Assembly: GCA_905181865.1 (NCBI GenBank)
Contig: CAJIZG010000003.1
Coordinates: 327,001 to 391,000 of the forward strand
Length of the DNA: 64,000 bases
Origin: Urechidicola croceus
Lineage (GTDB): Bacteria > Bacteroidota > Bacteroidia > Flavobacteriales > Flavobacteriaceae
Direction of reading: 5' to 3'
Below the pieces are notes generated by a model that was not told the DNA's origin, searched no databases, and worked only from the letters and a program-made list of their open reading frames with translations. The translations under genes and the position numbers were made by a program. Below, piece after piece: positions 3,983 through 49,192 of the stretch; position 1 is the first letter of the stretch; each line of letters starts with the position of its first letter.

Positions 3983-4016
3983 ACACTATGATAGATTAAA
4001 CTGATAAAAGTTATTC

Positions 4017-4799: not shown

Positions 4800-4815
4800 T
4801 CTATAAATTTATTCT

Positions 4816-5808: not shown

Positions 5809-5820
5809 TGTATCTTTCTT

Positions 5821-7179
5821 TTATAATTTCATTTTCCATCCTTTTTCATAGGATCTTTTCCATAATTTATTCGCCTCTTTATCTTTTAAAATATGTCCAT
5901 TTAAAGGATCTATATCCAACGATCTCCCAGTGCGTTGCGCAATATTTCCAAGTTGAACCAGTAAGGTACTCTTGTGTCCAGAATCTATATCAGCATTTAA
6001 TTTTCCATCATTTTTAATAGCATCAAACATATTTCTGATATGTAATACATCCAAATTTTGAGCCGGATTTACCGTGTTCATCGGATCGATATTAGTAGTG
6101 CTTTTTACTTCTTTAACAATATTGTTTTTTAAATCGAAAATTGTATAATCATTACCACCATTCATTAACATACTACCACTTTCACCGTAAAAAATAACAC
6201 CAACTGAACTTCCTTCAATATGTTTACCATTACAACTTCTTCCTTCCCAAGTCATGGAAAGATTTTCTGCAAAATCTAAGTTGATAATTTGCGTATCTGG
6301 CGTCTCCCAATCGTCATTGTATCTGTATCGCCCCCCATTAGAACTAACTTTTGTTGGATAATCGACACCCATTCCCCATCTTAATAAATCAATCATATGG
6401 GTTCCATTATTCAAAGCTTCACCGGTGCCCCAATGCCAATGCCAATGCCAATTGTAATGAATCAAATTATCCTTATACTCTTTTCTTGGAGCAGGCCCTT
6501 GCCATAAATCCCAATTTAGCCAAGCTGGAACCGCTGTATATTTCCCAATACCTATCGATTCTCTGTTGTTAGCATACCATCCTTTTCCATAATATACATG
6601 ACCAATGACTCCCTTTTTTAAGGCTTCAATCCCCGCTACCACATTGGGCCACGATCTACGTTGGTTTCCCATTTGAATAACCTTACCATAGCGCTGAGCC
6701 GCTTCTATAAGCATTTCTCCCTCACTCGGATTATGACTGCACGGCTTTTCTACATACACATGTTTCCCTGCCTGCATCGCAAGCAAAGAAGCTGGAGCAT
6801 GCCAGTGGTCTGGCGCTGCAATCACCATAGTATCTATATCCTTACTATCCAACGATTTTCTAAAATCTCCAAAAGGTTCCGCCGTAAAGTTTTGTTTATC
6901 TTTTAATGAATTCAAACATTTTGTAATAGCTCTCGTATCTACGTCACATACATGAATAACGTCGCAATTATTTTGAATTGCAAAATTTTGAGCCAAGGCA
7001 TTACCCCTGCTATTTACCCCCATCATGGAAACATTAATACGGTCATTTGCTCCTTTAATTCGACTGTAACTTTTCGCACTAAACATCGGTAATACTCCGC
7101 CGAATGCCATCGCAGTAGAAACCGCTGCCGTCTTTTTAATAAAATCTCTTCTGTTGTTTAAATAGGCCTCATTTTTCAT
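5821..7179 (-). CDS. Gfo/Idh/MocA-family oxidoreductase, Tat-exported (long form)
   Basis: A 452-residue NAD(P)-dependent oxidoreductase with a good Tat signal (NNRRDFIKKTAAVSTAMAFG) followed by a Rossmann domain starting at about INVSMMGVNSRGNALA. The EKP motif is intact (HVYVEKPCSHNP), and the usual APDHWHA segment is present just before it. The C-terminal domain carries the family's aromatic block, here NWHWHWHWGTGEALNNGTH; the DNA underneath is a short CCAATG tandem run near 6430-6450 on the plus strand. Expected role is periplasmic oxidation of a sugar or glycoside, possibly at C3, for the DUF1080 lipoprotein. It is the second gene of the operon, 11 bp behind the LacI-type regulator. Confidence 0.87.
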   Translation of the reverse strand: MKNEAYLNNRRDFIKKTAAVSTAMAFGGVLPMFSAKSYSRIKGANDRINVSMMGVNSRGNALAQNFAIQNNCDVIHVCDVDTRAITKCLNSLKDKQNFTAEPFGDFRKSLDSKDIDTMVIAAPDHWHAPASLLAMQAGKHVYVEKPCSHNPSEGEMLIEAAQRYGKVIQMGNQRRSWPNVVAGIEALKKGVIGHVYYGKGWYANNRESIGIGKYTAVPAWLNWDLWQGPAPRKEYKDNLIHYNWHWHWHWGTGEALNNGTHMIDLLRWGMGVDYPTKVSSNGGRYRYNDDWETPDTQIINLDFAENLSMTWEGRSCNGKHIEGSSVGVIFYGESGSMLMNGGNDYTIFDLKNNIVKEVKSTTNIDPMNTVNPAQNLDVLHIRNMFDAIKNDGKLNADIDSGHKSTLLVQLGNIAQRTGRSLDIDPLNGHILKDKEANKLWKRSYEKGWKMKL

Positions 7180-9341: not shown

Positions 9342-12080
9342 ATGAAAAATTATATACCTTCTCTAAAAAGAGGTTTCTTTTTAGTTATACTATTATTAAG
9401 TTCAACTACGGTATTTTCAAATACTTTTGAAAATAATGACAAAATTGATTTGTCACCTGTTAGCATAGTTGTGGCTCCTATTACTTCGTTTACACCATCT
9501 ACGGGAGCTGCCGGAACTGTTGTTACTATTAGTGATACAGGTGGTAACTTTTTATTAGGTCAACCGGTTACTTTAAACGGAGGTTTAATTCCTGCAATAA
9601 ATGTAACTTTTATAGATGCAAACACACTAAACGTTACTATTCCCTGCGGTGCATCTACTGGAAAATTTAGTGTAGATGGAGGGGTTGATTCTACAAATAC
9701 ATTTACTTATATAGTTCTAAGTCCTCCTACAGCAGCAGCACAAGCCTTTTGTTCTGCTGATAGTCCTACCGGTTCAGATTTAGTACCAGCGCTATCTGGT
9801 TCTATTCAGTGGTATAGTAATGTAGGATTAACAACACCTGTACTTGCTGGAACCGCATTAACTACACAAACTTATTACGTTACTGAAACAACCAATAATT
9901 GTGAAAGTACTGCTACAACAGTAGCTATTACGGTTAATACGACACCTACTGCTCCTACCGCAGCAACACAAGCCTTTTGCTCTGCTGATAGTCCTTCTGG
10001 TGCAGATTTAATACCTTTATTATCAAGTTCTATAAAATGGTTTAGCGACCTAGCATTGACAACACCTGTTATCGCAGGAACTGCATTAACTACACAAATT
10101 TATTACGTAACTGAGACAACCAATAATTGTCAGAGTACACCAACATCGGTAACTGTTACGGTTAACACAACACCTACTGCTCCTACGGCAGCAGCACAAG
10201 CCTTTTGCTCTGCTGATAGTCCTACCGGGGCTGATTTAGTACCTGCCATTTCTAGTTCTATAAAATGGTATAGTGATCTAGGATTGACAACACCTGTTAT
10301 TGCAGGAACTGCTTTAACTAACCAAACTTATTACGTTACTGAAACAACTAATAATTGTCAGAGTACAGCAACATCGGTAGCTGTTACGGTTAATACAACA
10401 CCTACTGCTCCTACGGCAGCAGCACAAGCCTTTTGCTCTGCTGATAGTCCTTCTGGTGCAGATTTAATACCTGCTATTTCTAGTTCTATAAAATGGTATA
10501 GTAATGTAGGATTAACAATACCTGTTATTGCAGGAACTGCATTATCTACACAAAACTATTACGTTACTGAAACAACCAATAATTGTGAAAGTACTGCTAC
10601 AACAGTAGCCATTACCGTTAACACAACACCTACTGCTCCTACAGCAGCACCACAAGCCTTTTGCTCTGCTGATAGTCCTTCTGGTGCAGATTTAATACCT
10701 TTATTATCAAGTTCTATAAAATGGTATAGTAATGTAGGATTGACAACACCTGTTATTGCAGGAACGGCATTAACTACACAAAACTATTACGTTACTGAAA
10801 CAACCAATAATTGTGAAAGTGCACCAACATTGGTAGCCATTACGGTTAATACAACACCTACTGCTCCTACAGCAGCAGCACAAGCCTTTTGTTCTGCTGA
10901 TAGTCCTACCGGGGCTGATTTAGTACCAGCGCTATCTGGTTCTATTCAGTGGTATAGTAATGTAGGATTAACAATACCTGTTATTGCAGGAACCGCATTA
11001 ACTACACAAACTTATTACGTTACTGAAACAACCAATAATTGTGAAAGTACTGCTACAACAGTAGCTATTACGGTTAATACGACACCTACTGCTCCTACCG
11101 CAGCAACACAAGCCTTTTGCTCTGCTGATAGTCCTTCTGGTGCAGATTTAATACCTTTATTATCAAGTTCTATAAAATGGTTTAGCGACCTAGCATTGAC
11201 AACACCTGTTATCGCAGGAACTGCATTAACTACACAAATTTATTACGTAACTGAGACAACCAATAATTGTCAGAGTACACCAACATCGGTAACTGTTACG
11301 GTTAACACAACACCTACTGCTCCTACGGCAGCAGCACAAGCCTTTTGCTCTGCTGATAGTCCTACCGGGGCTGATTTAGTACCTGCCATTTCTAGTTCTA
11401 TAAAATGGTATAGTGATCTAGGATTGACAACACCTGTTATTGCAGGAACTGCTTTAACTAACCAAACTTATTACGTTACTGAAACAACTAATAATTGTCA
11501 GAGTACAGCAACATCGGTAGCTGTTACGGTTAATACAACACCTACTGCTCCTACGGCAGCAGCACAAGCCTTTTGCTCTGCTGATAGTCCTTCTGGTGCA
11601 GATTTAATACCTGCTATTTCTAGTTCTATAAAATGGTATAGTAATGTAGGATTAACAATACCTGTTATTGTAGGAACTGCATTATCTACACAAAACTATT
11701 ACGTTACTGAAACAACCAATAATTGTGAAAGTACTGCTACAACAGTAGCCATTACCGTTAACACAACACCTACTGCTCCTACAGCAGCACCACTAGCCTT
11801 TTGCTCTGCTGATAGTCCTTCTGGTGCAGATTTAATACCTTTATTATCAAGTTCTATAAAATGGTATAGTAATGTAGGATTGACAACACCTGTTATTGCA
11901 GGAACGGCATTAACTACACAAAACTATTACGTTACTGAAACAACCAATAATTGTGAAAGTGCACCAACATTGGTAGCCATTACGGTTAATACAACACCTA
12001 CTGCTCCTACAGCAGCAGCACAAGCCTTTTGTTCTGCTGATAGTCCTACCGGGGCTGATTTAGTACCTGCCATTATCTAG
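9342..12080 (+). CDS. Adhesin segment 1: signal peptide, IPT/TIG domain, repeat units 1-10
   Basis: This is the in-frame N-terminal piece as the sequence stands (912 residues to a premature TAG at 12078-12080). It begins with a Sec signal peptide (KRGFFLVILLLSSTTVFS) and an IPT/TIG fold with the typical PITSFTPSTGAAGTVVTISD opening. The first 76-residue unit starts at the AFCSAD motif at 9743. Units follow at exact 228-bp steps (9971, 10199, 10427, 10655, 10883 and so on). The premature stop is produced by one extra base near 12074, where the expected GCCATTTCTAG or GCGCTATCTGG variant reads GCCATTATCTAG. Confidence 0.75.
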   Translation: MKNYIPSLKRGFFLVILLLSSTTVFSNTFENNDKIDLSPVSIVVAPITSFTPSTGAAGTVVTISDTGGNFLLGQPVTLNGGLIPAINVTFIDANTLNVTIPCGASTGKFSVDGGVDSTNTFTYIVLSPPTAAAQAFCSADSPTGSDLVPALSGSIQWYSNVGLTTPVLAGTALTTQTYYVTETTNNCESTATTVAITVNTTPTAPTAATQAFCSADSPSGADLIPLLSSSIKWFSDLALTTPVIAGTALTTQIYYVTETTNNCQSTPTSVTVTVNTTPTAPTAAAQAFCSADSPTGADLVPAISSSIKWYSDLGLTTPVIAGTALTNQTYYVTETTNNCQSTATSVAVTVNTTPTAPTAAAQAFCSADSPSGADLIPAISSSIKWYSNVGLTIPVIAGTALSTQNYYVTETTNNCESTATTVAITVNTTPTAPTAAPQAFCSADSPSGADLIPLLSSSIKWYSNVGLTTPVIAGTALTTQNYYVTETTNNCESAPTLVAITVNTTPTAPTAAAQAFCSADSPTGADLVPALSGSIQWYSNVGLTIPVIAGTALTTQTYYVTETTNNCESTATTVAITVNTTPTAPTAATQAFCSADSPSGADLIPLLSSSIKWFSDLALTTPVIAGTALTTQIYYVTETTNNCQSTPTSVTVTVNTTPTAPTAAAQAFCSADSPTGADLVPAISSSIKWYSDLGLTTPVIAGTALTNQTYYVTETTNNCQSTATSVAVTVNTTPTAPTAAAQAFCSADSPSGADLIPAISSSIKWYSNVGLTIPVIVGTALSTQNYYVTETTNNCESTATTVAITVNTTPTAPTAAPLAFCSADSPSGADLIPLLSSSIKWYSNVGLTTPVIAGTALTTQNYYVTETTNNCESAPTLVAITVNTTPTAPTAAAQAFCSADSPTGADLVPAII

Positions 12081-15000
12081 TTCTATTCAGTGGTATAGTA
12101 ATGTAGGATTAACAATACCTGTTATTGCAGGAACCGCATTAACTACACAAACTTATTACGTTACTGAAACAACCAATAATTGTGAAAGTACTGCTACAAC
12201 AGTAGCTATTACGGTTAATACGACACCTACTGCTCCTACCGCAGCAACACAAGCCTTTTGCTCTGCTGATAGTCCTACTGGTGCAGATTTAATACCTTTA
12301 TTATCAAGTTCTATAAAATGGTTTAGCGACCTAGCATTGACAACACCTGTTATCGCAGGAACTGCATTAACTACACAAATTTATTACGTAACTGAGACAA
12401 CCAATAATTGTCAGAGTACACCAACATCGGTAACTGTTACGGTTAACACAACACCTACTGCTCCTACGGCAGCAGCACAAGCCTTTTGCTCTGCTGATAG
12501 TCCTACCGGGGCTGATTTAGTACCTGCCATTTCTAGTTCTATAAAATGGTATAGTGATCTAGGATTAACAACACCTGTTATTGCAGGAACTGCTTTAACT
12601 AACCAAACTTATTACGTTACTGAAACAACTAATAATTGTCAGAGTACAGCAACATCGGTAGCTGTTACGGTTAATACAACACCTACTGCTCCTACGGCAG
12701 CAGCACAAGCCTTTTGCTCTGCTGATAGTCCTTCTGGTGCAGATTTAATACCTGCTATTTCTAGTTCTATAAAATGGTATAGTAATGTAGGATTAACAAT
12801 ACCTGTTATTGTCAGGAACTGCATTATCTACACAAAACTATTACGTTACTGAAACAACCAATAATTGTGAAAGTACTGCTACAACAGTAGCCATTACCGT
12901 TAACACAACACCTACTGCTCCTACAGCAGCACCACTAGCCTTTTGCTCTGCTGATAGTCCTTCTGGTGCAGATTTAATACCTTTATTATCAAGTTCTATA
13001 AAATGGTATAGTAATGTAGGATTAACAATACCTGTTATTGCAGGAACTGCATTATCTACACAAAACTATTACGTTACTGAAACAACCAATAATTGTGAAA
13101 GTACACCAACATTGGTAGCCATTACCGTTAACACAACACCTACTGCTCCTAATGCAGCACCACTAGCCTTTTGTTCTGCTGATAGTCCTACCGGGGCTGA
13201 TTTAGTACCTGCCATTTCTAGTTCTATTCAGTGGTATAGTAATGTAGGATTAACAACACCTGTTATTGCAGGAACTGCTTTAACTAACCAAACTTATTAC
13301 GTTACTGAAACAACTAATAATTGTCAGAGTACAGCAACATCGGTAACTGTTACGGTTAATACAACACCTAATGCTCCTACGGCAGCAGCACAAGCCTTTT
13401 GCTCTGCTGATAGTCCTTCTGGTGCAGATTTAATACCTGCTATTTCTAGTTCTATAAAATGGTATAGTGATCTAGGATTAACAATACCTGTTATTTCAGG
13501 AACTTCATTATCTACACAAAACTATTACGTAACTGAGACAACCAATAATTGTGAAAGTACACCAACATTGGTAACTGTTACGGTTAATACAACACCTACT
13601 GCTCCTACGGCAGCAGCACAAGCCTTTTGCTCTGCTGATAGTCCTTCTGGTGCAGATTTAATACCTTTATTATCAAGTTCTATAAAATGGTATAGTAATG
13701 TAGGATTAACAATACCTGTTATTGCAGGAACTGCATTAACTACACAAAACTATTACGTTACTGAAACAACCAATAATTGTGAAAGTGCACCAACATTGGT
13801 AGCCATTACGGTTAATACAACACCTACTGCTCCTACAGCAGCAGCACAAGCCTTTTGTTCTGCTGATAGTCCTACCGGTTCAGATTTAGTACCAGCGCTA
13901 TCTGGTTCTATTCAGTGGTATAGTAATGTAGGATTAACAATACCTGTACTTGCTGGAACCGTATTAACTACACAAACTTATTACGTTACTGAAACAACCA
14001 ATAATTGTGAAAGTACTGCTACAACAGTAGCTATTACGGTTAATACGACACCTACTGCTCCTACAGCAGCAACACAAGCCTTTTGCTCTGCTGATAGTCC
14101 TTCTGGTGCAGATTTAATACCTTTATTATCAAGTTCTATAAAATGGTTTAGCGACCTAGCATTGACAACACCTGTTATCGCAGGAACTGCATTAACTACA
14201 CAAATTTATTACGTAACTGAGACAACCAATAATTGTCAGAGTACACCAACATCGGTAACTGTTACGGTTAACACAACACCTACTGCTCCTACGGCAGCAG
14301 CACAAGCCTTTTGCTCTGCTGATAGTCCTACCGGGGCTGATTTAGTACCTGCGCATTTCTGGTTCTATTCAGTGGTATAGTGATCTAGGATTGACAACAC
14401 CTGTTATTGCAGGAACTGCTTTAACTAACCAAACTTATTACGTTACTGAAACAACTAATAATTGTCAGAGTACAGCAACATCGGTAGCTGTTACGGTTAA
14501 TACAACACCTACTGCTCCTACGGCAGCAGCACAAGCCTTTTGCTCTGCTGATAGTCCTTCTGGTGCAGATTTAATACCTGCTATTTCTAGTTCTATAAAA
14601 TGGTATAGTAATGTAGGATTAACAATACCTGTTATTGCAGGAACTGCATTATCTACACAAAACTATTACGTTACTGAAACAACCAATAATTGTGAAAGTA
14701 CTGCTACAACAGTAGCCATTACCGTTAACACAACACCTACTGCTCCTACAGCAGCACCACAAGCCTTTTGCTCTGCTGATAGTCCTACCGGGGCTGATTT
14801 AGTACCAGCGCTATCTGGTTCTATTCAGTGGTATAGTAATGTAGGATTAACAACACCTGTTATTGCAGGAACTGCTTTATCTACACAAAACTATTACGTT
14901 ACTGAAACAACCAATAATTGTGAAAGTGCACCAACATTGGTAGCCATTACGGTTAATACAACACCTACTGCTCCTACAGCAGCAGCACAAGCCTTTTGTT

Positions 15001-21000: not shown

Positions 21001-24000
21001 GATTAACAATACCTGTTATTTCAGGAACTGCATTATCTACACAAAACTATTACGTTACTGAAACAACCAATAATTGTGAAAGTACACCAACATTGGTAGC
21101 CATTACCGTTAACACAACACCTACTGCTCCTACTGCAGCACCACTAGCCTTTTGCTCTGCTGATAGTCCTACCGGGGCTGATTTAGTACCTGCCATTTCT
21201 AGTTCTATAAAATGGTATAGTAATGTAGGATTAACAATACCTGTTATTGCAGGAACTGCATTATCTACACAAAACTATTACGTTACTGAAACAACCAATA
21301 ATTGTGAAAGTACACCAACATTGGTAGCCATTACCGTTACAACACCTACTGCTCCTACAGCAGCAGCACAAGCCTTTTGCTCTGCTGATAGTCCTACCGG
21401 TTCAGATTTAGTACCAGCGCTATCTGGTTCTATTCAGTGGTATAGTAATGTAGGATTAACAACACCTGTTATTGCAGGAACTGCTTTATCTACACAAAAC
21501 TATTACGTTACTGAAACAACCAATAATTGTGAAAGTACTGCTACAACAGTAGCTATTACGGTTAATCCAACACCTACTGCTCCTACCGCAGCAACACAGG
21601 CCTTTTGCTCTGCTGATATTCCTACTGGTGCAGATTTAATACCTGCTATTTCTAGTTCTATAAAATGGTATAGTAATGTAGGATTAACAACACCTGTTAT
21701 CGCAGGAACTGCATTAACTACACAAATTTATTACGTAACTGAAACAACCAATAATTGTCAGAGTACAGCAACATCGGTAACTGTTACGGTTAATACAACA
21801 CCTACTGCTCCTACGGCAGCAGCACAAGCCTTTTGCTTTGCTGATAGTCCTACCGGTTCAGATTTAGTACCTGCCATTTCTAGTTCTATAAAATGGTATA
21901 GTGATCTAGGATTAACAACACCTGTTATGGCAGGAACTGCTTTAACTAACCAAACTTATTACGTTACTGAAACAACTAATAATTGTCAGAGTACAGCAAC
22001 TCCAGTAACTTTAACAATTGATACAGCTCCTGTTGCTCCTGCAAGTTTAGGAGATATTACTGAATGTGAGGAAAGTCCTATTCAAACTTTAAACGCTAAT
22101 GATGCTTTTGCCTCAACAACAGGTGTTACTTGGTATACAGCTGCTACAGATGGATTTATAGTTGCAAGCCCAACATTAAATTCAATAAGTAGTGTTACAT
22201 ACTATGCCGAATACAATAACGGTACTTGTGATAGTTTAACTAGAACTGCTGTTACTTTAACAATTGATGCAGCCCCTGCTGCTCCTACAAGTTTAGGAAA
22301 TATTACTGAATGTGAGGAAAGTCCTATTCAAACTTTAAACGCTAATGATGCTTTTGCTTCAACAACAGGTATTACCTGGTATACAGATGCTGCAGCAGGT
22401 ACAGTAGTGGGAAGCCCAACAATATCAGCAATTGGAACCACTACATACTATGCCGAATACTTTAACGGGACTTGTTCTAGTTTAACTAGAACTGCTGTTA
22501 CTTTAACAATAACTCCTGCATCTACTGCTCCTACTAGTTTAGGAAATATTACTGAATGTGAGGAAAGTCCTATTCAAACTTTAGATGCGAATAATGCCTT
22601 TGGTTCAACAACAGGTATTACCTGGTATACAGCTGCTACAGCAGGTGCTACTGTATTTAGCCCAACATTATCAGCAACTGGAAACATTACCTACTATGCG
22701 GAATACAATGACGGAACTTGTCCAAGTATAACAAGAACTCCTGTTACTTTAACATTAAATGCAGCACCTGCAACTCCTATAAGCACAGGAAACATTATAG
22801 TATGTGAAACAAATCCAATCCAAACTTTAGATGCTAATGATGCTTTGGTTTCTACCACTGGTGTAACCTGGTATGATAGTGCTATAGGTAATATAGTAGT
22901 TCCAAACCCTACAATATCAGCAATCGGAACTGCTACCTACTATGCCGAATACAATAACGGTACTTGTTCTAGTTTAACTAGAAGACCTGTTACATTAACA
23001 ATCAATGGAGCACCTGCTCCTGAAAGTAGAGGTAATATCACACAATGTTTGCAAAGTCCAATTCAAACTTTAAATGCTAATAATGCATTAGTTTCTAATA
23101 CAGGCGTAACCTGGTATAACGCTGCCATAACAGGAGATATAGTGGTTAGCCCTACATTATCAGATGTTGGAAGTATTACTTACTATGCTGAATACACTGA
23201 CGGTACTTGTACTAGTTTAAATAGAACTCCTGTTACTTTAACAATTAATGGAGCATCTCCTCCCTTTCCACCTGCTAGTTCAGGAAACATTACAGTCTGT
23301 GAGACAAATCCAATTGTAGATTTAGATGCCAATAATGCTTTGGTTTCTACCACAGGTATTACATGGTATAATACTCCTACAGGAGATTTTGTAGTTCCAA
23401 CTCCAACTTTAAATACTGTAGGAAACATAACCTATTATGCCGAATACTCTAACGGTGCTTGTTCTAGTTTAACTAGAACGCCTGTTACTTTAACAATAAC
23501 TGCTGCACCTGCTGCGCCTACAAGTACAGGAGATATTACAGTATGTGAGGCAAGTCCAATTCAAACTTTAGATGCTAATGATGCTTTGATCTCTATAACA
23601 GGTGTTACTTGGTATACAGCTGCTACAGATGGAGTTATAGTTGCAAGCCCAACATTAAATTCAATAAGTAGTGTTACATACTATGCCGAATACAATAACG
23701 GTACTTGTGATAGTTTAACTAGAACTGCTGTTACTTTAACAATAACTGCAGTACCTCTTGCTCCTACAAGTTTAGGAGATATTACTGAATGTTTGCAAAG
23801 TCCAATCCAAACGTTGAATGCAAATAATGCTTTTGCTTCTACAACAGGTATTACTTGGTATGATGCTGCTACGGGAGGTACAGTAGTGGGAAGCCCAACA
23901 ATATCAGCAATTGGAAACACTACCTTCTATGCCGAATACTTTAACGGTACTTGCTCTAGTTTAACTAGAACGCCTGTTACTTTAACAATAACTGCTCCAC

Positions 24001-27000
24001 CTGCTGCGCCTACAAGTACAGGAGATATTACAGTATGTGAAGCAAGTCCAATTCAAACTTTAGATGCTAATGATGCATTTGCTTCTACAACAGGTATTAC
24101 TTGGTATGATGCTGCTACGGCTGGCGCTGTTGTAACAAGTCCTACATTATCAGCAAATGGAACCACTACATACTATGCCGAATATTTTGACGGAACTTGT
24201 TCTAGTTTAACTAGAACGCCTGTTACTTTAACAATAACTGCTGCACCTCTTGCTCCTACTAGTAATGGAGATATCACACAATGTACAGCAAGTCCAATCG
24301 TAGCTTTAGATGCTAATGATGCCTTGGTTTCTACTACAGGTGTAACCTGGTATGATAGTGCTATAGGTAATACAGTAGTTCCAAACCCTACAATATCAGC
24401 AATCGGAACTGCTACCTACTATGCGGAATACGATAACGGTACTTGTTCTAGTTTAACTAGAACTGCTGTTGTTTTAACAATCAATGGATCGCCTGCCGCT
24501 CCTACAAGTACAGGAAATATTACGGCATGTGAAACAAATCCAATCCAAACTTTAGATGCTAATGATGCTTTGGTTTCTACCACTGGTATTACTTGGTATG
24601 ATAATGCTATAGGTGGTACAGTAGTTCCAAGTCCTACAATATCAGCAACTGGAACCGCTACCTACTATGCGGAATACGATAACGGTACTTGTACTAGTTT
24701 AACTAGAACTACTGTTACTTTAACAATAACTGCTGCACCTGCTGCGCCCACAAGTACAGGTGATATTACATCATGTGAGGCTAATCCAATTGTACCTTTA
24801 GATGCTAATGATGCTTTGATCTCTATAACAGGTGTTACTTGGTATACAGCTGCTACAGATGGAGTTATAGTTGCAAGCCCAACATTAAATTCAATAAGTA
24901 GTGTTACATACTATGCCGAATACAATAACGGGACTTGTGATAGTTTAACTAGAACTGCTGTTACTTTAACAATAACTGCTGCACCTCTTGCTCCTACAAG
25001 TTTAGGAGATATTACTGAATGTTTGCAAAGTCCAATCCAAACGTTGAATGCAAATAATGCTTTTGCTTCTACAACAGGTATTACCTGGTATACAGCTGCT
25101 ACAGCAGGCACAGTAGTGGGAAGCCCAACAATATCAGCAATTGGAACCATACCTTCTATGCCGAATACTTTAACGGTACTTGCTCTAGTTTAACTAGAAC
25201 GCCTGTTACTTTAACAATAACTGCTGCACCTGCTGCGCCTACTAAGTACAGGAGATATTACTAGTATGTGAAGCAAGTCCAATTCAAACTTTAGATGCTA
25301 ATGATGCATTTGCTTCTACAATAGGTATTACTTGGTATGATGCTGCTACGGCTGGCGCTGTTGTAACAAGTCCTACATTATCAGCAAATGGAACCACTAC
25401 ATACTATGCCGAATATTTTGACGGAACTTGTTCTAGTTTAACTAGAACGCCTGTTACTTTAACAATAACTGCTGCACCTCTTGCTCCTACTAGTAATGGA
25501 GATATCATACAATGTACAGCAAGTCCAATCGTAGCTTTAGATGCTAATGATGCCTTGGTTTCTACTACAGGTGTAACCTGGTATGATAGTGCTATAGGTA
25601 ATACAGTAGTTCCAAACCCTACAATATCAGCAATCGGAACTGCTACCTACTATGCGGAATACTTTAACGGTACTTGTTCTAGTTTAACTAGAACTGCTGT
25701 TGTTTTAACAATCAATGAATCGCCTGCCGCTCCTACAAGTACAGGAAATATTACGGCATGTGAAACAAATCCAATCCAAACTTTAGATGCTAATGATGCT
25801 TTGGTTTCTACCACTGGTATTACTTGGTATGATAATGCTATAGGTGGTACAGTAGTTCCAAGTCCTACAATATCAGCAACTGGAACCGCTACCTACTATG
25901 CTGAATACGATAACGGTACTTGTACTAGTTTAACTAGAACTACTGTTACTTTAACAATAACTGCTGCACCTGCTGCGCCCACAAGTATAGGTGATATTAC
26001 ATCATGTGAGGCTAATCCAATTGTACCTTTAGATGCTAATGATGCTTTGATCTCTATAACAGGTGTTACTTGGTATACATCTGCTACAGGCAGGAGTTGT
26101 AGTTGCAAGCCCAACATTAAATTCAATAAGTAGTATTACATACTATGCCGAATATAATAACGGAACTTGTGATAGTTTAACTAGAACTGCTGTTACTTTA
26201 ACAATAATGCAGCCCCTGCTGCTCCTACTAGTTTAGGAGATATTACTGAATGTTTGCAAAGTCCAATCCAAACGTTGAATGCAAATAATGCTTTTGCTTC
26301 TACAACAGGTATTACCTGGTATACAGCTGCTACAGCAGGTACAGTAGTGGGAAGCCCAACAATATCAGCAATTGGAACCACTACCTTCTATGCCGAATAC
26401 TTTAACGGTACTTGCTCTAGTTTAACTAGAACGCCTGTTACTTTAACAATAACTGCTGAACCTGCTGCGCCTACAAGTACAGGAGATATTACAGTATGTG
26501 AAGCAAGTCCAATTCAAACTTTAGATGCTAATGATGCATTTGCTTCTACAATAGGTATTACTTGGTATGATGCTGCTACGGCTGGCGCTGTTGTAACAAG
26601 TCCTACATTATCAGCAACTGGAACCACTACATACTATGCCGAATACGATAACGGTACTTGTTCTAGTTTAACTAGAACTACTGTTACTTTAACAATAACT
26701 GCTGCTCCTGCTGCGCCTACAAGTACAGGAGACATTACATCATGTGAAACAAGTCCAATCGTAGCTTTAGATGCTAATGATGCTTTGGTTTCTACTACAG
26801 GTGTTACTTGGTACACATCTGCTACAGGCAGTGTTGTAGTTGCAAGCCCAACATTAAATTCAATAAGTAGTATTACATACTATGCTGAATATAATGATGG
26901 AACTTGTGATAGTTTAACTAGAACTGCTGTTACTTTAACAATCAATGGAGCCCCTGCTGCTCCTACTAGTTTAGGAAATATTACTGAATGTGAGGAAAGT

Positions 27001-30000
27001 CCTATTCAAACTTTAGATGCTAATGATGCTTTTGCTTCAACAACAGGTATTACCTGGTATACAGCTCCTACAGGAGGTACAGTAGTGGGAAGCCCAACAA
27101 TATCAGCAATTGGAACCACTACATACTATGCCGAATACTTTAACGGTACTTGCTCTAGTTTAACTAGAACGCCTGTTACTTTAACAATAACTGCAGCCCC
27201 TGCTGCGCCTACTAGTTTAGGAAATATTACTGAATGTGAGGAAAGTCCTATTCAAACTTTAAATGCAAACGATGCATTTGCTTCTACAACAGGTATTACC
27301 TGGTATACTTTAGCCTCTGCTGGTTCCGTAGTTGGAAGTCCAACTTTAAATACGGTTGGAACCACTACATACTATGCCGAATACTCTGACGGAACTTGTT
27401 CTAGTTTAACTAGAACGCCTGTTACTTTAACAATAACTGCTGCACCTCTTGCTCCTACTAGTAATGGAGATATCACACAATGTGAAGCAAGTCCAATCGT
27501 AGCTTTAGATGCTAATGATGCTTTGGTTTCTACTACAGGTGTAACCTGGTATGATAGTGCTATAGGTAATACAGTAGTTCCAAACCCTACAATATCAGCA
27601 ATCGGAACTGCTACCTACTATGCGGAATACTTTAACGGTACTTGTTCTAGTTTAACTAGAACTGCTGTTGTTTTAACAATCAATGAATCGCCTGCCGCTG
27701 CTACAAGTACAGGAAATATTACGGCATGTGAAACAAATCCAATCCAAACTTTAGATGCTAATGATGCTTTGGTTTCTACCACTGGTATTACTTGGTATGA
27801 TAATGCTATAGGTGGTACAGTAGTTCCAAGTCCTACAATATCAGCAACTGGAACCGCTACCTACTATGCTGAATACGATAACGGTACTTGTACTAGTTTA
27901 AATAGAACTACTGTTACTTTAACAATAAATGGAGCGCCAATATTAACAAGTACACTTACCCCTGCAGCAATATGCTCTAATGAGACATTTGCGTATACGC
28001 CAGAAAGCAGTACCAATCCTCTTACCATCGGTTGGACACGAGTTCCCGTTGCGGGTATTTCAGGCGCTGCCTCTGGAACTGGAAATATAAATGATGTCCT
28101 TATCAATACAACTGGTTCACCAATATCAGTAACTTATGAATTAACTTTAACACCAACAATTGATGGATGTGCAGCTATTGTAAGTCTTGTTGTATTAGTA
28201 AACCCTATGCCAACTGCAAGTATATCTGGAGGTGGTAATTCTTGTTTAAATAATACTGATAATTTAATTGTATTGACAGGTGCAAATGGCACTGCCCCTT
28301 ACACTTTTACATATAATATTGGTGCAAGTGGACCTTACACGATTACTACAACATCCGGCAATAGCATTGCTGTAACTTCATCATCTAGTACTTTAGGAGG
28401 TTATACTTATAGTTTAATTGGTGTTCAAGATGCAAACTCTTGTGCATCACCACCAATTACAGGTCAATCAGCCCCAATTACTGTTGAGCCTTTACCAAGT
28501 TTAGTTATTACTGATCCTGAAGCAGTCTGTTTCCCAAATACTATCGATTTGATTGGGTTAGACTCATTAAATCCCGATATCGCTGTTGGTTCAGAGTCTG
28601 GTTTAACATATACATATTGGACTAACGCAACGGCAACTACACCATATTATACACCTGAAGCAGCCACAGCAGGCACCTACTATGTTAAGGGAACAAACAG
28701 TAATGGATGTTTTACAATTCTTCCGGTAATGATAAGCGTAAATTCTCTCCCAACTGTTACTGTAAATAGCCCAACAATTTGCGATGGGGAAACGGCGACA
28801 ATTTCCGCTACACCAAGTCCAGTTGGGTTATATGATTATAGTTGGACAGTTCCATCTGGAACTGTACCTCCTGGGAACGTTCCTTCATTTACAACTACAA
28901 TAGCTGGTGATTATACTGTTGAAATTACCAGGCAAGTAGCACCTTTATGCCTAAGTTTAGCCGCAACCAGCACTTTAACTATAAACCCTTTACCTACTGC
29001 TACAATTTCTAGCAATGTTACTGTTTGTATAGATGACTCTGCAACCGCTACATTTACAGGTGCAAACGGAACTGCTCCGTATACATTTACTTACAACATT
29101 GATGGAGGTGCCAATCAACTTATTACGACTACTTCAGGCAATAGTATTACATTAAATGCTTTAACGAATACTTCGGGTATATTTAATTACAACTTAGTAC
29201 GCGTAACCGATTCAAGTTTAAATGCTTGTTCACAGGCAATAACTGGACAAACTGCCAGCGTTACGGTTAAAGAAATACCTACTGTAGATGCAGGTGATGA
29301 TATAGACGTTTGCGCAGGTGAAGAAGTAACGCTTACCGCCTCAGGTACAGCAACTTCTTATATATGGAATAATAGTGTAGTAGACGGTGTACCGTTTACA
29401 CCAACAAGATCTACAACATATATGGTTACTGGTACAGATAGTTTTGGTTGTAAAAATACAGCTGAGGTAACCGTTACAATTATACCTGCCATTACAGGTA
29501 CTATTAAAACACCTTATGACTTTGAAGTTTGTAAAGATGATACATCTCCAACTATTACTTTTGTTGGAGCAAATGGAACTGCTCCTTATATATTTACTTA
29601 TGAAATAATAGATGAATCTAGTGCAATTATAGGTAGTGGAAGTATTACATCAACTGGAAATGAAGCTATTTTAACACCAGAAATACCAACAACTATACCT
29701 GGCCTATTTACAGTAACATTATTAAGTATTGAAGATTCTGGTAGTTGTAAAAATGGAGACTTAATCGCTCCAAATCAGGCCTTTATTAATGTGTTAGATG
29801 CCGGTATTCTTCCTCTTAATTTAATTGAGGTCAATCAACTAGTTTGTGAAAATGAACCAATTGTAGATATTATATTTGAAATAAATGGCTCACCAATAAA
29901 CGCTTATGTAGATGACTTACCAACTGGTATAACCAGTGATTATGTGCCTAGTACCATTGTAGGAAATCCTGGAATATTAACGATAACAGGTGCTCCAAAT

Positions 30001-33000
30001 GAAGTTGGAACATTTTTTTACATTGTAAATACATCTGGTTCTTTAATTGGATGTAATAAAACATTCCCAGGTACATTAACGGTCAATGCGACTGGTAAAT
30101 TAGCATTACAACTCCCTGATTCAGATATTCAAGAGGTTTGTAATAACACTCCTATTACCAATATAACCTATAATATAGAAGGTGGGGCAACAGGAGCTAC
30201 TGTAATATTTTCACCAAGTGCTCCAGCAGGAATAACGTATGCAATATCAAGTAGCACCGTAATTATTTCTGGTACTCCAGAGGAGAGAGGAGTGTTTTAT
30301 TATACCGTTGAATCATTTTCAACCGAAAATAATTGTGCTCAAAGTACAGAAACAGGAACTTTGACTATTACTGAAAGTGAAATTATTTTAGCTTCTGGAA
30401 CGCTAGATCAAACGACCTGTATTAATAATCCTATAGATGATACAACTTTTAGTATAACCACTAATCCTTCAACAGCCCCAGCAGCCTCCTTAGTGTTGCT
30501 TGGTACATTGCCAGAAGGTGTTATTTTTAATCCAAGTACTGGAATTATTTCAGGTACACCAACCGAAGGTGGAATATTCGCTTATAGTATAGAAGCTTCA
30601 ACGGGTTGTGCGACATCAATTACTGGTGAAATAATTGTGAATGCTACACTCCCTAACGTTCTCATAGAAGATGGTTTAACGGATATTGAAGTTTGTGTAG
30701 GAAGTGAAATTACTTTAACAGCCACTGGTGCTGATCTTTATGAATGGTATGAATTAGATACCTTTGGTATACCAGTTTCATTAGTAACTACCGATACCTA
30801 TACTTTTACACCTGCAACAAATCAAACACTCTATGTCATTGGAACATTGGCTGATGGTTGTGACAATACAGCTCAAATAAATATTATTCTTAAACCTGCT
30901 ATTTCAGCAAGTATTACTGGAGTTAATGTGTTTGAAGTTTGTAGAGATCAAACGGAACCTACAATTACATTCACAGGAACAAATGGTATTGCACCGTATA
31001 AATTTACATATACTATAAATAGTATAATAAGTACAGTTACTGGTATTAACACGAATGATAGTGCTGTAATAAATATTCCAACGAATATAGCTGGAACTTA
31101 TAATATTCAATTAATGAATGTTGAAGATAGTGGAAGTACCAATTGTAGTCCTCCCAAGCTTTTAGAGCCTACAACAGCCTCTGTCACCGTATTAGATTCT
31201 GGAGTATATCCGCAAGCAGGTGCAGAAATTTACCAAACAATATGTGAGGGAACAGCAATTACCTCCATTTTATTTGATATACAAGGTTCTGTAACAAATG
31301 CATTTGCTGAAGGCTTACCATCAGGAGTCACAAGTTCATACGCAGGCAATATATTAACGATTTCAGGAACACCTTCCATAACAGGTAGTTCTGATTATAC
31401 AATTGTTACTTCTGGTCTATCTGCAGCTTGTAATGCTACATTTACAGGTAATATAACTGTTAATGATAATGACCTAGTCACTCCAGTTGCTGGCAGTGAA
31501 ATTGATCAAACAATTTGTGAGTGTAGTGAAATATCACCAATTTTATTCGAATTAGGCGGTGGAGCAACAGGTGCGACCGTAACAGGTTTACCATCTGGAA
31601 TTAATTGGAATATAAATGGAAACATTTTAACCATTTCGGGAAGTAGCTGCGATACAACTAGTCCTGGCAATTATGTTATAACTACGCAAGGTATTTGCAC
31701 AAGTGCTACAACATCTGGTATAATAAGTATTACATCACCTGCTAGTTTAGAGCAAACAACTGGTATTCTTGCTGATGATGAAATACTTTGTATAAATAAT
31801 CCTTTAACTACAAATATTCAATACCAAGGTACTGCTGGACAAACATTATTGCTCACTGGTCTATTACCTCCAGGAATGTCGTTTAATGCTGATCCGGCAT
31901 CAGGTAGCGGTATTATAAGCGGTACACCTACGTTAAAAGGCACTTATAATTATAGTATTACATCTAGTACTAATTGTAGTGATGTACTGGAAGATCGTAT
32001 TATTGTAGAAGGAGATGCATTTATTAATTTAAATAGTGACAGTAGCAGTATAAACCAAATTGCTTGTATTGGTTCTCCTATTGAAACTTTAAGCTATGGT
32101 ATACCATTAAGTATAACAAATGTAACATTTTCCTCTACTTTACCAACAGGTATTAATTATATAGTGGTAGATGGTGCATTGATAATTTCAGGAACACCAA
32201 CTAGTGCATCTGTGGAAACAACTTATGAAATTACTGCAATAAGCAATTGCGGGGCTCCTGCTTCAATACAATTTAAATTAACTATTGAAGAAAGCCCTAT
32301 AATTACTTTAGAAATAGGCTCAGGTACTATAACACAATCCGTTTGTCAAAATAGTACTATTAGCCCTATTCAGTTTACAGTAAGTCCAGCAGGTACAACA
32401 ATTGATCAAAGCTTATTGCCAAGCTTTATAACTGCTACAGAAATTAACGCCCCTTTAGGTTTATGGGAATTAACAGGTTCTCCAGTAAGTACAGGCAGCT
32501 TTAATTTTGAAATCCAAACTTTAGGGAGTTCTAATTGCAGTGCAAGTTTACCTATTCAAATTGAGAATTTATATGCCGCAGTAAGTGTAGTACTAGATGC
32601 TGGCTCAGAGAATCAAACACTTTGTTCATTTAACGATCCTATTGTAGATATTGTTTACAATATAACCGGTAGTATTCCAAATACAAGTATTATTAAGGTT
32701 ACAGGTTTACCAAATGGAATTTCATTCATGGATACGGCTACTGCAACAGGTATGCTACTTACTATTAGTGGACAGGCAACAGAATCAGGTGTTTTTGAGT
32801 ATGAAGTAACCTATGATACTTGCGGAACACTTAAAACAGGTGTGATAGAAATTTCATCACCAATGACAATTAATAGTGAAATCGCACAAATTTCATGTTT
32901 AGGAGGTGATGCTGAAATCTCTGTAACAGTATTTGGAGGGGTACCTTTTATTGATGAGACTAATGGAAGTCCTTTCTACGCGATTAATTGGGAAGGACCA

Positions 33001-34290
33001 AATGGGTTCCGCCAAAATCAAACTACAATTACTAATTTGCTACCTGGAGATTATACAATTAGCGGTACAGATGCAATAGGGTGTACTTTCCCTTCAGAAA
33101 CGTATACCATTGAAGAATTAACACCCCTATATATTGATTTATTAGATACAACGGTAGCAACCGGTTGTGATGGCACTTTAGGCTGTGCAAACTTTGATTA
33201 TATAGGTGGCACAGGGATTTACACTTCGTTCTTACTTGAATATTCAAACCCACAAAGTCAAACTTGGAAAATAATAGATGCATCTGAGATTAATAATAAC
33301 TACTATAATATTTGTGATTTAGAAGCTGGCTTATATAGTATTACAGTCACCGATAGTGGTGGTTGTGAAACAGAACCTCTCTTGTTTACTGTTGAAAATG
33401 GCACTCAGTTCTCTATAGAAAATTTAGTGTTAGAAGAAAGTTTATGTAATGGGGAAATAGGAAATATTTTAATTGAAGTAAATTCTATTGATCCAAACCT
33501 AATATTCACATACAATGGGAATACAGTTACTTCAACAGTACTCGGAAATAATTTCTATGAATTGCAAATTAATTCAGATGGAGCAACAAATGGTATAATA
33601 GCCGTAACAAACTTTAATGGATGCACAATTTCTAGAGATATTACGCTAGAAACCATGGAACCTGATTTTGAATATACATCTGAAGAATTTGAGAATTTTG
33701 GTTACTTTGATGTGAATTCAAATATAACGTTTACAAACCTAAATTTTATAAATCCGTCTATTTACAACCCTAATATATACACCTATATAGAATGGGATTT
33801 TGATGATAACACTCCTCTTAAAACTTTCTATTATCCCGCTAATTTAGCCCCTAATGAAAATGATGAAAGTATTAAAAATGTTTTTCATACCTATACTAAT
33901 GATGGAATTTATAATGCAACACTTACACTTTATAATAGTGCTGGTTGCTCAACATCAATGACTAAAACAATTGTAATTGGGAAAGGAGCTTCCATTATGC
34001 TACCTACCGCATTTTCTCCTAATAATGATGGTGTTAATGATAGTTTTAGACCACTCTTTAGAGGGGTTACTGAAATCTCTATGTACATTTATGACAATTG
34101 GGGCAATTTAGTGTATGATTTCAATTCACAAGACGCCACAACCATTGAAACAGACAATCGTTGGGGATGGGATGGAATTGAACCAAGAAATTCTGAATCT
34201 AAAAATGGCACTTATAGATGTTATATCGTGGCTAAAACATTAGATGAGAAAACAATTACAAAAACAGGTAGATTCTTAATTATAAAATAA
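9342..34290 (+). CDS. Giant T9SS-secreted Ig-like repeat adhesin (about 8,314 aa if frame-corrected)
   Basis: This is one gene split by eight single-base indels (six insertions, two deletions; net +4) near 12074, 12812, 14353, 25149, 25244, 25262, 26095 and 26207. Correcting them gives 8,315 codons including the stop. Order: signal peptide (1-27), IPT/TIG domain (about 46-127), 54 Ig-like units of 76 residues (about 127-4220), 24 units of 82 residues (about 4220-6200), a mixed region with four GANGTAPYTFTY-type and about nine ISGTP-type modules (6200-8100), a PKD-like domain (8106-8212), and a CHU_C/type-B T9SS sorting domain (last 100). Every repeat has two cysteines that probably pair. It should be exported by Sec, crossed over the outer membrane by the T9SS and held at the surface with the PorP/SprF protein encoded 39 bp downstream. 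Adhesion or gliding is likely; the ligand is unknown. Confidence 0.88.
12075..12852 (+). CDS. Adhesin segment 2: repeat units 11 (part)-14 in shifted frame
   Basis: After the first insertion the repeat continues in the next frame without interruption (first ATG at 12337, but there is no reason to think translation restarts there). Units of types A, B and C follow in the same order as in the preceding block. The frame ends because of an extra base at 12812: the copies read either ATTGTAGG or ATTGCAGG, and this site reads ATTGTCAGG, carrying both variants' bases. Confidence 0.6.
12813..14380 (+). CDS. Adhesin segment 3: repeat units 14 (part)-21
   Basis: The repeat runs on in the third frame to a premature TAG at 14378-14380. 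Units here include the SSSIQWYSNVGL and GTSLSTQNYYV variants that recur in the same order near 17,000-17,900, showing a long-range block duplication. The frame breaks at 14351-14354 (GCGCATTTCTGG), where two repeat variants appear merged. The same unit continues with IQWYSDLGL, a combination not seen in any other copy. Confidence 0.6.
14354..25193 (+). CDS. Adhesin segment 4: rest of the 76-aa array and first part of the 82-aa array
   Basis: This is the longest uninterrupted piece (about 3,600 residues; first ATG at 14391). It holds the remaining units of the first array up to unit 54, whose AFC motif starts at 21827. One unit near 21337 lacks one codon in the NTTPTAP linker, an in-frame loss. 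From about 22030 the second array begins, with units opening GDITECEESPIQTLNANDAF and ending YYAEYFNGTCSSLTRTAVTL. The frame fails near 25149, where ACCACTACC of the sister copies is ACCATACC (one base missing). Confidence 0.75.
22021..27930 (+). repeat. Tandem array 2: 24 copies of a ~246-bp unit
   Basis: Units begin with G(D/N)ITxC at about 22050 and recur roughly every 246 bp to about 27712, 24 copies in all. Each has one cysteine near the start and one in the NGTC motif. Units 8-12 (ECLQ, VCEAS, QCTAS, ACETN, SCEAN types) are repeated as units 13-17 and again from unit 18, a five-unit period of about 1,230 bp. Five of the gene's eight indels lie in the middle period (25149-26207), and none in the first or third. 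Confidence 0.93.
25555..26133 (+). CDS. Adhesin segment 5: units 15-17 of the 82-aa array
   Basis: This short open stretch lies between indels at 25244/25262 and 26095. It encodes units opening GNITACETNP and GDITSCEANP, matching units 11-12 of the array almost exactly, one five-unit period (about 1,230 bp) earlier. The ATG at 25555 is internal to a repeat and is not a credible start; the segment belongs to the single adhesin gene. Confidence 0.55.
   Translation: MVSTTGVTWYDSAIGNTVVPNPTISAIGTATYYAEYFNGTCSSLTRTAVVLTINESPAAPTSTGNITACETNPIQTLDANDALVSTTGITWYDNAIGGTVVPSPTISATGTATYYAEYDNGTCTSLTRTTVTLTITAAPAAPTSIGDITSCEANPIVPLDANDALISITGVTWYTSATGRSCSCKPNIKFNK
26254..34290 (+). CDS. Adhesin segment 6: last 82-aa units, mixed modules, PKD and T9SS type-B sorting domain
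   Basis: This C-terminal piece (2,678 residues from an internal ATG) ends the gene. After the last 82-residue units (to about 27930) come non-identical Ig-like modules: GANGTAPYTFTY-type copies near 28265, 29050, 29560 and 30970, and ISGTPTEGGIFAYS-type copies between about 29980 and 32830. A PKD-like domain carries EWDFDD and HTYTNDGIYNATLTL (about 33660-33980). The terminal domain has LPTAFSPNNDGVNDSF, YDNWGNLVYD and a final GRFLIIK, the signature of the CHU_C/gliding-motility type-B sorting signal. Alone it has no signal peptide, so it would not be exported. Confidence 0.85.
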   Translation: MQSPIQTLNANNAFASTTGITWYTAATAGTVVGSPTISAIGTTTFYAEYFNGTCSSLTRTPVTLTITAEPAAPTSTGDITVCEASPIQTLDANDAFASTIGITWYDAATAGAVVTSPTLSATGTTTYYAEYDNGTCSSLTRTTVTLTITAAPAAPTSTGDITSCETSPIVALDANDALVSTTGVTWYTSATGSVVVASPTLNSISSITYYAEYNDGTCDSLTRTAVTLTINGAPAAPTSLGNITECEESPIQTLDANDAFASTTGITWYTAPTGGTVVGSPTISAIGTTTYYAEYFNGTCSSLTRTPVTLTITAAPAAPTSLGNITECEESPIQTLNANDAFASTTGITWYTLASAGSVVGSPTLNTVGTTTYYAEYSDGTCSSLTRTPVTLTITAAPLAPTSNGDITQCEASPIVALDANDALVSTTGVTWYDSAIGNTVVPNPTISAIGTATYYAEYFNGTCSSLTRTAVVLTINESPAAATSTGNITACETNPIQTLDANDALVSTTGITWYDNAIGGTVVPSPTISATGTATYYAEYDNGTCTSLNRTTVTLTINGAPILTSTLTPAAICSNETFAYTPESSTNPLTIGWTRVPVAGISGAASGTGNINDVLINTTGSPISVTYELTLTPTIDGCAAIVSLVVLVNPMPTASISGGGNSCLNNTDNLIVLTGANGTAPYTFTYNIGASGPYTITTTSGNSIAVTSSSSTLGGYTYSLIGVQDANSCASPPITGQSAPITVEPLPSLVITDPEAVCFPNTIDLIGLDSLNPDIAVGSESGLTYTYWTNATATTPYYTPEAATAGTYYVKGTNSNGCFTILPVMISVNSLPTVTVNSPTICDGETATISATPSPVGLYDYSWTVPSGTVPPGNVPSFTTTIAGDYTVEITRQVAPLCLSLAATSTLTINPLPTATISSNVTVCIDDSATATFTGANGTAPYTFTYNIDGGANQLITTTSGNSITLNALTNTSGIFNYNLVRVTDSSLNACSQAITGQTASVTVKEIPTVDAGDDIDVCAGEEVTLTASGTATSYIWNNSVVDGVPFTPTRSTTYMVTGTDSFGCKNTAEVTVTIIPAITGTIKTPYDFEVCKDDTSPTITFVGANGTAPYIFTYEIIDESSAIIGSGSITSTGNEAILTPEIPTTIPGLFTVTLLSIEDSGSCKNGDLIAPNQAFINVLDAGILPLNLIEVNQLVCENEPIVDIIFEINGSPINAYVDDLPTGITSDYVPSTIVGNPGILTITGAPNEVGTFFYIVNTSGSLIGCNKTFPGTLTVNATGKLALQLPDSDIQEVCNNTPITNITYNIEGGATGATVIFSPSAPAGITYAISSSTVIISGTPEERGVFYYTVESFSTENNCAQSTETGTLTITESEIILASGTLDQTTCINNPIDDTTFSITTNPSTAPAASLVLLGTLPEGVIFNPSTGIISGTPTEGGIFAYSIEASTGCATSITGEIIVNATLPNVLIEDGLTDIEVCVGSEITLTATGADLYEWYELDTFGIPVSLVTTDTYTFTPATNQTLYVIGTLADGCDNTAQINIILKPAISASITGVNVFEVCRDQTEPTITFTGTNGIAPYKFTYTINSIISTVTGINTNDSAVINIPTNIAGTYNIQLMNVEDSGSTNCSPPKLLEPTTASVTVLDSGVYPQAGAEIYQTICEGTAITSILFDIQGSVTNAFAEGLPSGVTSSYAGNILTISGTPSITGSSDYTIVTSGLSAACNATFTGNITVNDNDLVTPVAGSEIDQTICECSEISPILFELGGGATGATVTGLPSGINWNINGNILTISGSSCDTTSPGNYVITTQGICTSATTSGIISITSPASLEQTTGILADDEILCINNPLTTNIQYQGTAGQTLLLTGLLPPGMSFNADPASGSGIISGTPTLKGTYNYSITSSTNCSDVLEDRIIVEGDAFINLNSDSSSINQIACIGSPIETLSYGIPLSITNVTFSSTLPTGINYIVVDGALIISGTPTSASVETTYEITAISNCGAPASIQFKLTIEESPIITLEIGSGTITQSVCQNSTISPIQFTVSPAGTTIDQSLLPSFITATEINAPLGLWELTGSPVSTGSFNFEIQTLGSSNCSASLPIQIENLYAAVSVVLDAGSENQTLCSFNDPIVDIVYNITGSIPNTSIIKVTGLPNGISFMDTATATGMLLTISGQATESGVFEYEVTYDTCGTLKTGVIEISSPMTINSEIAQISCLGGDAEISVTVFGGVPFIDETNGSPFYAINWEGPNGFRQNQTTITNLLPGDYTISGTDAIGCTFPSETYTIEELTPLYIDLLDTTVATGCDGTLGCANFDYIGGTGIYTSFLLEYSNPQSQTWKIIDASEINNNYYNICDLEAGLYSITVTDSGGCETEPLLFTVENGTQFSIENLVLEESLCNGEIGNILIEVNSIDPNLIFTYNGNTVTSTVLGNNFYELQINSDGATNGIIAVTNFNGCTISRDITLETMEPDFEYTSEEFENFGYFDVNSNITFTNLNFINPSIYNPNIYTYIEWDFDDNTPLKTFYYPANLAPNENDESIKNVFHTYTNDGIYNATLTLYNSAGCSTSMTKTIVIGKGASIMLPTAFSPNNDGVNDSFRPLFRGVTEISMYIYDNWGNLVYDFNSQDATTIETDNRWGWDGIEPRNSESKNGTYRCYIVAKTLDEKTITKTGRFLIIK

Positions 34291-40348: not shown

Positions 40349-40353
40349 AATTT

Positions 40354-48890: not shown

Positions 48891-48897
48891 CTTCTTG

Positions 48898-48971
<74 letters not shown>

Positions 48972-49019
48972 ATTATCAAATCAATAAGACTTGAATAAAA
49001 CAATAATAAGTTCACTTTG

Positions 49020-49094: not shown

Positions 49095-49192
49095 AATAAA
49101 ATAAAAGTTGAACCTTATATTAAATTCTGTAAACCTACAAAATGCCATACATACAGTTTTAAAACAATATACTACACTTAGAAAAATAAAAG

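Follow-up and report, generated by a model that had tools for sequence, protein, structure and literature searches.

A giant repeat gene of Urechidicola croceus predicted to encode a type B adhesin with a replaceable Ig-like stalk and its own cysteine-free carrier

The carrier protein SprF is tied to the gliding track by cysteines in its tail, via GldK, and substituting these cysteines almost completely suppresses sustained movement (PMC12635249). Type B adhesins of the type IX secretion system (T9SS) with static behaviour are also known, Fjoh_4750 and Fjoh_3952 being among the mobile and static examples (PMC12618676), and one proposal is that PorE-like partners go with static adhesins (PMC9143113). 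Grappling hooks have been described as heptamers of a T9SS-secreted protein (PMC11205867). Here we describe a giant gene and its neighbours in a window of 64,000 nucleotides from Urechidicola croceus (G000:C3:327001-391000; genome of 3.42 Mb in six contigs, Flavobacteriaceae, 97.4% complete). The gene (C3:336342-361290) spans 9342-34290 on the + strand; positions are in window numbering unless a genome or contig prefix is given. The sequence supports the reading that it encodes a T9SS type B surface protein with a stalk of Ig-like repeats and a PorP/SprF partner of its own. Taken as a whole, we consider it fairly probable that the product is a giant type B adhesin, encoded on a tRNA-side island, in which the stalk is replaceable, the array has grown by block duplication, the tether is not driven by the track and the frame shifts are mostly errors. 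The parts of the gene and its neighbour are as follows.

9342-12080, + strand: first open piece, with the signal-peptide-like start, the tip and the A units that precede the first frame shift
9724-22000, + strand: A array of 54 units (Ig_7; 228 bp or 76 residues each), with three single-base shifts inside
21998-27935, + strand: B array of 24 units (Ig_7; about 246 bp or 82 residues each), with five single-base shifts inside
28024-34290, + strand: foot, with one PKD_5-like unit, He_PIG and PKD-like domains and the terminal CHU_C
34000-34266 (G000:C3:361000-361266), + strand: CHU_C type B T9SS signal, divergent, 45.2 bits
34330-35343, + strand: PorP/SprF carrier of 337 aa (PF11751, 49.1 bits; TIGR03519, 81.7 bits, below the cut-off of 90.55)

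The gene thus runs, in order, through start, tip, A array, B array, foot and CHU_C. The start resembles a signal peptide as judged by eye and is followed by an N-terminal tip of approximately 127 residues. At the other end, the foot is non-repetitive, approximately 2,088 residues long and open throughout. The Pfam model for CHU_C (PF13585) scores 39 bits against a cut-off of 27, but TIGR04131, the model for type B domains in NCBIfam, reaches 23.2 against a cut-off of 35, which makes the sorting domain a divergent one. The carrier gene begins 39 bp past the stop of the giant gene, and its product has no match in the PDB by phmmer. The genome encodes the T9SS translocon protein SprA (TIGR04189, 2488 bits), the one component for which we searched. 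A first-pass annotation, made from the sequence alone, had already recognised the signal peptide, the CHU_C domain and a PorP/SprF partner. It had also placed an IPT/TIG domain at the N-terminus, which we rejected because Pfam gives no match within residues 1-136 even at E 10. Several other matches were set aside. In the first open piece, an NHL match (35 bits in Pfam against 20) is the sum of weak stretches of which none is significant singly, and the models for VirD4 (33.8 against a cut-off of 728) and trehalose-phosphate synthase (19.3 against 759) were, like NHL, regarded as repeat artefacts. Acetyltransf_9 in the foot piece scores 20.4 against a cut-off of 25.

Tandem Repeats Finder (TRF) reports 53.8 copies of a 228-bp repeat at 9724-22000 and 24.1 copies of a 246-bp repeat at 21998-27935. 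Anchoring the units on motifs gives 54 units in A and 24 in B, the numbers that the first-pass annotation had given. The exact spacing that it ascribed to A holds for 49 of the 53 intervals (three are 229 bp and one is 225 bp); in B, 17 of 23 intervals are exactly 246 bp. Its description of the units as near-identical suits A, with a mean pairwise DNA identity of 89% and 24 identical pairs among 54 units, better than B, where the mean is 80% (23 of 24 units compared). The two cysteines that it noticed in each unit, and from which it suggested a disulfide-ladder fibre, are conserved: both codons are present in 54/54 A units, and in B the second is present in 24/24 and an in-frame first in 22/24. 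It had further proposed a search of single units against domain models. In this search one A unit (30.8 bits) and one B unit (48.2 bits) pass the cut-off of 27.3 for Ig_7 (PF19081, 'Ig-like domain CHU_C associated' in Pfam), and no TIG domain is found. The predicted structure of three consecutive A units has a mean predicted local distance difference test score (pLDDT) of 34.5, and that of one unit modelled with a 34-row alignment has a pLDDT of 70.9, which is too weak to judge a disulfide or inter-domain geometry.

The order of the A units is periodic, with mean identities of 0.97, 0.95, 0.95, 0.93 and 0.92 at lags of 18, 23, 5, 13 and 10 units, and none of 2000 shuffles of unit order matched any of these values at the same lag. 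The B units have a mean identity of 0.868 at lag 5, again reached at that lag by 0/2000 shuffles; compared with the best lag of each shuffled order, the value lies above the 95% level (0.837) and below the largest value (0.878). This periodicity indicates that multi-unit blocks have been duplicated. Differences between units show a mean dN of 0.08 and a mean dS of 0.28 (200 sampled pairs), and the units are under purifying selection. The two arrays differ in unit length and sequence, yet across 9724-27935 both have a five-unit higher-order period.

The foot has relatives at 15 loci in a scan of named genomes, three of them at E 0. In Lutibacter citreus 1KV19 (L031, L044 and L045) the match covers query residues 1-2088, with 66% identity in the best segment; in Lutibacter sp. 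NORP71 (L030) it covers the same residues at 49%; and in Flavobacteriaceae bacterium NORP270 (L029), where the contig is cut, it covers residues 56-2088 at 60%. Two further loci match at 34%, L033 of Flavobacterium gillisiae over residues 1-2036 (E 1e-30) and L032 over residues 12-1638 (E 2e-45), and the matches at the other ten are shorter. The carrier adjoins the foot in all three close relatives. Over the last ~2,650 residues, which include B units, identity is 55% to L. citreus and 44% to NORP71, and NORP71 also shares the start of the signal region. The L. citreus orthologue is one unbroken frame of 9,025 open codons, 9,003 of them from the first Met, in which TRF lists no tandem array. 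The NORP71 relative has 4,226 residues in an unbroken frame, in a record with ambiguous bases. Their stalks are of another kind: the whole NORP71 protein scores 286 bits for PKD_6, 239 for PKD_5 and 29.8, just over the cut-off, for Ig_7, and the 4,995 residues scanned of the 9,003 in L. citreus score 403, 164 and 19.8 bits, the last below the cut-off. The A units align with the stalks of the relatives at 20-25% identity over long gapped stretches. Searched against whole genomes, the A array has no match in L. citreus or NORP270 and one match in NORP71, at 32% and on another contig. The foot itself is present at E <= 1e-60 in 2/299 sampled genomes of the family, one of which is the genome of the window.

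Relatives of the stalk units sit on another foot. Ig_7 occurs at E <= 1e-5 in 68/80 sampled family genomes. In the one-contig genome G034, which belongs to another genus, 37 Ig_7 units lie in a frame that stays unbroken over 4,569 codons (L066 and L068; G034:C1:3747989-3761695). These units are spaced at exactly 82 residues and are 96% identical in DNA and 98% in protein; the five-unit period is absent from this array. The 17 of 24 B units that were compared have a mean identity of 71% to the G034 units and of 72% among themselves. The feet of the two genes match weakly (best E 5e-4, 29%), and the G034 tip has no match to the foot of the window gene. At its end the G034 gene has CHU_C (79 bits), and genes for a PorP protein (269 bits) and an OmpA/PD40 protein adjoin it. 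For an A-type unit the nearest matches among the 299 family genomes are at 59% (G191) and 50-51% (G196 and G135), with matches at E <= 1e-12 in 41 of these genomes, its own included. Foot and stalk therefore seem, from these comparisons, to have different histories, although NORP71 keeps a few Ig_7 domains and the exchange is thus not total. Tentatively, giant T9SS adhesins could be built as chassis plus cassette: a conserved pair of foot and carrier would bear a stalk array that can be exchanged, passes from one foot to another unrelated one, is expanded or homogenised in place and here rides a tRNA-side island, the carriers that lack tail cysteines marking a class of long tethers that are parked and not driven by the track. 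The open-access literature, covered mostly by title and abstract and with subscription papers mostly outside that coverage, yielded no account that we recognised as dealing with the giant protein, with any relative of it or with the exchange of stalks in T9SS adhesins.

The carrier of the window has no cysteine in the whole protein. The carriers of the two complete relatives have no tail cysteine, and the third is cut before its tail. Among the six PorP/SprF proteins examined in the genome only one, that of sprF, has a tail C-x7-C motif; the genome has ten matches in all, of which the remaining four are fragments. One broken PorP/SprF gene lies beside a short CHU_C frame at G000:C1:678280-678949, and the two form a type B pair in decay. 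The giant gene does not adjoin the sprF-like gene whose product has tail cysteines, which is at C3:1031764-1032747. The C-x7-C motif of this product is kept in all ten genus genomes with an sprF match, this genome included (14 searched). The matched sprF of nine congeners is adjoined by a frame that runs for at least 437 codons and is truncated at the edge of the retrieved flank; three of these nine were scanned, and all carry CHU_C. In U. croceus itself (L049:5765-7517; G000:C3:1031764-1033516) the sprF-like gene is intact, but only remnants are left of the sprB-like gene next to it: that strand has no frame as long as 250 codons, a CHU_C with an internal stop is found there, and the longest remnant has no Pfam match. 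From their place and sequence the remnants are taken for sprB, and the species may have lost its canonical gliding adhesin. Since the carrier lacks tail cysteines, the giant adhesin is predicted to be a tether that is not driven by the track, and on these sequences we regard this as most likely.

The alternative is that the giant protein replaces SprB as the gliding adhesin and is itself pulled along the track. It has a type B signal, a carrier of its own and no PorE-like neighbour, as is reported for sprB and sprF (PMC9143113); sprB has decayed here, and a large frame lies beside the matched sprF in each of the nine congeners that have one. Three points count against a tether that the track does not drive: a carrier without the tail cysteines still allowed some short directed movement (PMC12635249), the published SprF tail motif is C-X-C and not C-x7-C, and no PorE-like gene adjoins the giant gene, as the proposal for static adhesins would lead one to expect. 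Replacement of SprB nevertheless seems improbable, given a carrier without any cysteine, two complete relatives whose carriers have none in the tail and the near loss of sustained movement on substitution in SprF. A second possibility is a multi-chain, grappling-hook-like fibre such as that formed by GhpA of Aureispira. A profile of 34 units finds GhpA (5,898 residues) as the single solved chain at E <= 0.001 (8.7e-8), and GhpA fragments take the first five places among the Foldseek matches of the one-unit model, with probabilities of 0.84-0.99. The E values of these matches are 0.08-0.42 and their query TM-scores 0.44-0.50; the foot has no match in the PDB at E <= 0.01, at the level of phmmer alone and without profile or fold comparison; and Ig_7 is so common in the family that shared domains do not imply a shared assembly. 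The relation to GhpA is one between domains, a shared assembly does not follow from it, and we think a fibre of this type just as doubtful as a replacement for SprB.

The other rivals concern the gene as assembled. Its span of 24,949 bases fits the single gene of approximately 25 kb and 8,314 residues that the first-pass annotation described, but the assembled sequence is not one frame: eight single-base length changes, three in A, five in B and none outside the arrays, leave six open pieces of at least 100 aa. All other differences in unit length are multiples of three except in the last B unit, where the slice overruns the array. Programmed frameshifting was rejected, by reasoning alone, since the shifts differ in place and sign. 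We infer that the shifts are probably, for the most part, consensus errors in repeats. The gene might instead have decayed, with real shifts and only fragments produced. The six open pieces would fit such decay, and genuine decay of genes of the same class is seen elsewhere in the genome, in the sprB remnant and the broken PorP gene at C1:678 kb. Further observations count against errors as the source: the bases inserted in A lie outside long homopolymers; the clustering of the shifts is weak evidence by itself, as all eight would fall within the arrays by chance in approximately 8% of cases (18.2 of the 24.9 kb is array; our own arithmetic); and two other arrays of the assembly are unbroken, a 300-bp array (82% matches) in L053 and a 198-bp array in L046 (16.7 copies, 91% matches, 1,585 open codons). 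Set against decay are the absence of any shift or stop in the 6.3-kb foot or the carrier and the purifying selection on the units. Moreover, L053 (G000:C3:36000-43150), a second repeat-rich CHU_C gene with a PorP gene behind it, has both the 300-bp array and a 207-bp array and changes frame inside the latter only, while neither the array of G034, a one-contig genome, nor the gene of L. citreus is broken. On balance decay is unlikely, though less so than either of the functional alternatives above. The least credible of the four rivals is that a duplication made in assembly produced the array or its length. Multi-unit blocks do recur (97% mean identity at lag 18), and A contains an exact repeat as long as 682 bp. 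The blocks differ, however, by substitutions scattered over the units, these differences favour synonymous changes, and exact repeats stop at 682 bp in A and at 201 bp in B, lengths that make a wholesale copying during assembly unlikely. Consensus errors remain our preferred account of the shifts.

The giant gene lies in a region that is additional to the arrangement in the congener G006. The relevant features are:

47462-48688, - strand: tyrosine-recombinase-like integrase (PF13102, 51.9 bits; PF00589, 19.5 bits, below the cut-off of 27.1)
48897-49279, - strand: cluster of tRNA-Arg, tRNA-Pro and tRNA-Ser, the start of synteny with two congeners, G006 and G002

The tRNA-Ser-Pro-Arg cluster is kept in all three genomes, and the window is collinear with G006 over 49385-63993 and with G002 over 49385-60215. 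In G006 the gene preceding the cluster ends approximately 210 bp from tRNA-Arg. Its counterpart here is at window positions -9316 to -8816, 57.7 kb from tRNA-Arg, so approximately 57.7 kb has been inserted. The integrase sits at the tRNA-Arg end of this insertion, which contains the giant gene. The foot is not found over its length in any of 13 congeners, two of which have short weak matches to its C-terminal end. We infer that the insertion likely arrived horizontally. Three results tell against this: only five of these 13 genomes reach 90% completeness; no exact att repeat of at least 14 bp is present in the 113 kb searched, although an old or degraded site is possible; and GyrA is 88% identical between the window genome and both L. 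citreus and NORP71, a level also found in some congeners (88-91%), which would allow patchy loss instead of transfer. G002 (L075 and L076; G002:C6) has other DNA in the 39 kb beyond the cluster, where the sole match of a frame to the U. croceus stretch is one of 41% to the ClpC-like protein; the tRNA site may be an integration hot spot, or G002 may have been rearranged there. The inserted region also carries, at 38882-43170 and 2771-7179, genes for DUF1501 and PSD1/PSCyt proteins and a cluster of GFO_IDH_MocA and 3-keto-disaccharide hydrolase genes, which are perhaps cargo for glycan use.

The protein could work as follows. The chain would be exported through SprA, and its C-terminal signal would be taken up by the divergent PorP/SprF carrier, to which it would stay bound. 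The foot of about 2,090 residues would then stand on the cell, and the 78 Ig-like units would keep the N-terminal tip well away from it. At about 4 nm per Ig-like domain, the reach would be roughly 0.3-0.4 um. The stalk would be a replaceable spacer, with PKD_5 and PKD_6 domains on the same foot in the relatives and B-like units on a different foot elsewhere, and would have grown by duplication of multi-unit blocks. With no tail cysteines in its carrier, the whole would act as a tether that the gliding track does not drive.

The first-pass annotation considered the size and repeat architecture exceptional. Neither is borne out: the 9,003-residue orthologue is intact, as is the 37-unit Ig_7 array of G034, and the published SprB has 6,497 aa. 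The gene is of a kind already known and holds no record in size. The picture is corrected in that the family contains other genes as large as this one and other Ig_7 arrays that run to dozens of units. The real interest lies in a kept foot and carrier with an exchanged stalk, in the island and in the cysteine-free carrier. If our reading is right, the anchoring part of a giant Bacteroidota adhesin (foot and carrier) is separable from the part that sets its reach (the stalk), and natural stalk swaps could be used to ask whether stalk length or sequence matters, the intact array in the one-contig genome G034 being a good natural test case. The tail cysteines of the carrier would, in addition, provide a sequence test for distinguishing track-moved from parked type B adhesins.

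Among known systems, the pair in the window resembles SprB and SprF of Flavobacterium johnsoniae. SprB is likewise a giant repetitive type B T9SS adhesin (6,497 aa; PMC9870892) and is anchored by a cognate PorP-like carrier (PMC9143113), as the paired carrier in the window would anchor the giant protein. The window pair differs in that the carrier has no tail cysteines, CHU_C and carrier are divergent, the stalk is of Ig_7 and the sprF of the genome is elsewhere. The L. citreus and NORP71 relatives have the same foot and carrier, and in NORP71 the signal region too, but their stalks are mainly of PKD_6 and PKD_5 and their frames are unbroken. The G034 protein shares with the B array its tandem 82-residue Ig_7 units, and with the gene as a whole a terminal CHU_C and a neighbouring PorP gene; it has another tip and another foot, its carrier scores 269 bits for PF11751 compared with 49 in the window, and it has an OmpA/PD40 neighbour. 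Finally, grappling hook protein A (GhpA) of Aureispira sp. CCB-QB1 (PDB 9flp and others) is also very large and has a long series of Ig-like domains that are detectably related to the units described here, whereas the foot of the window protein is not detectably related to it by phmmer.

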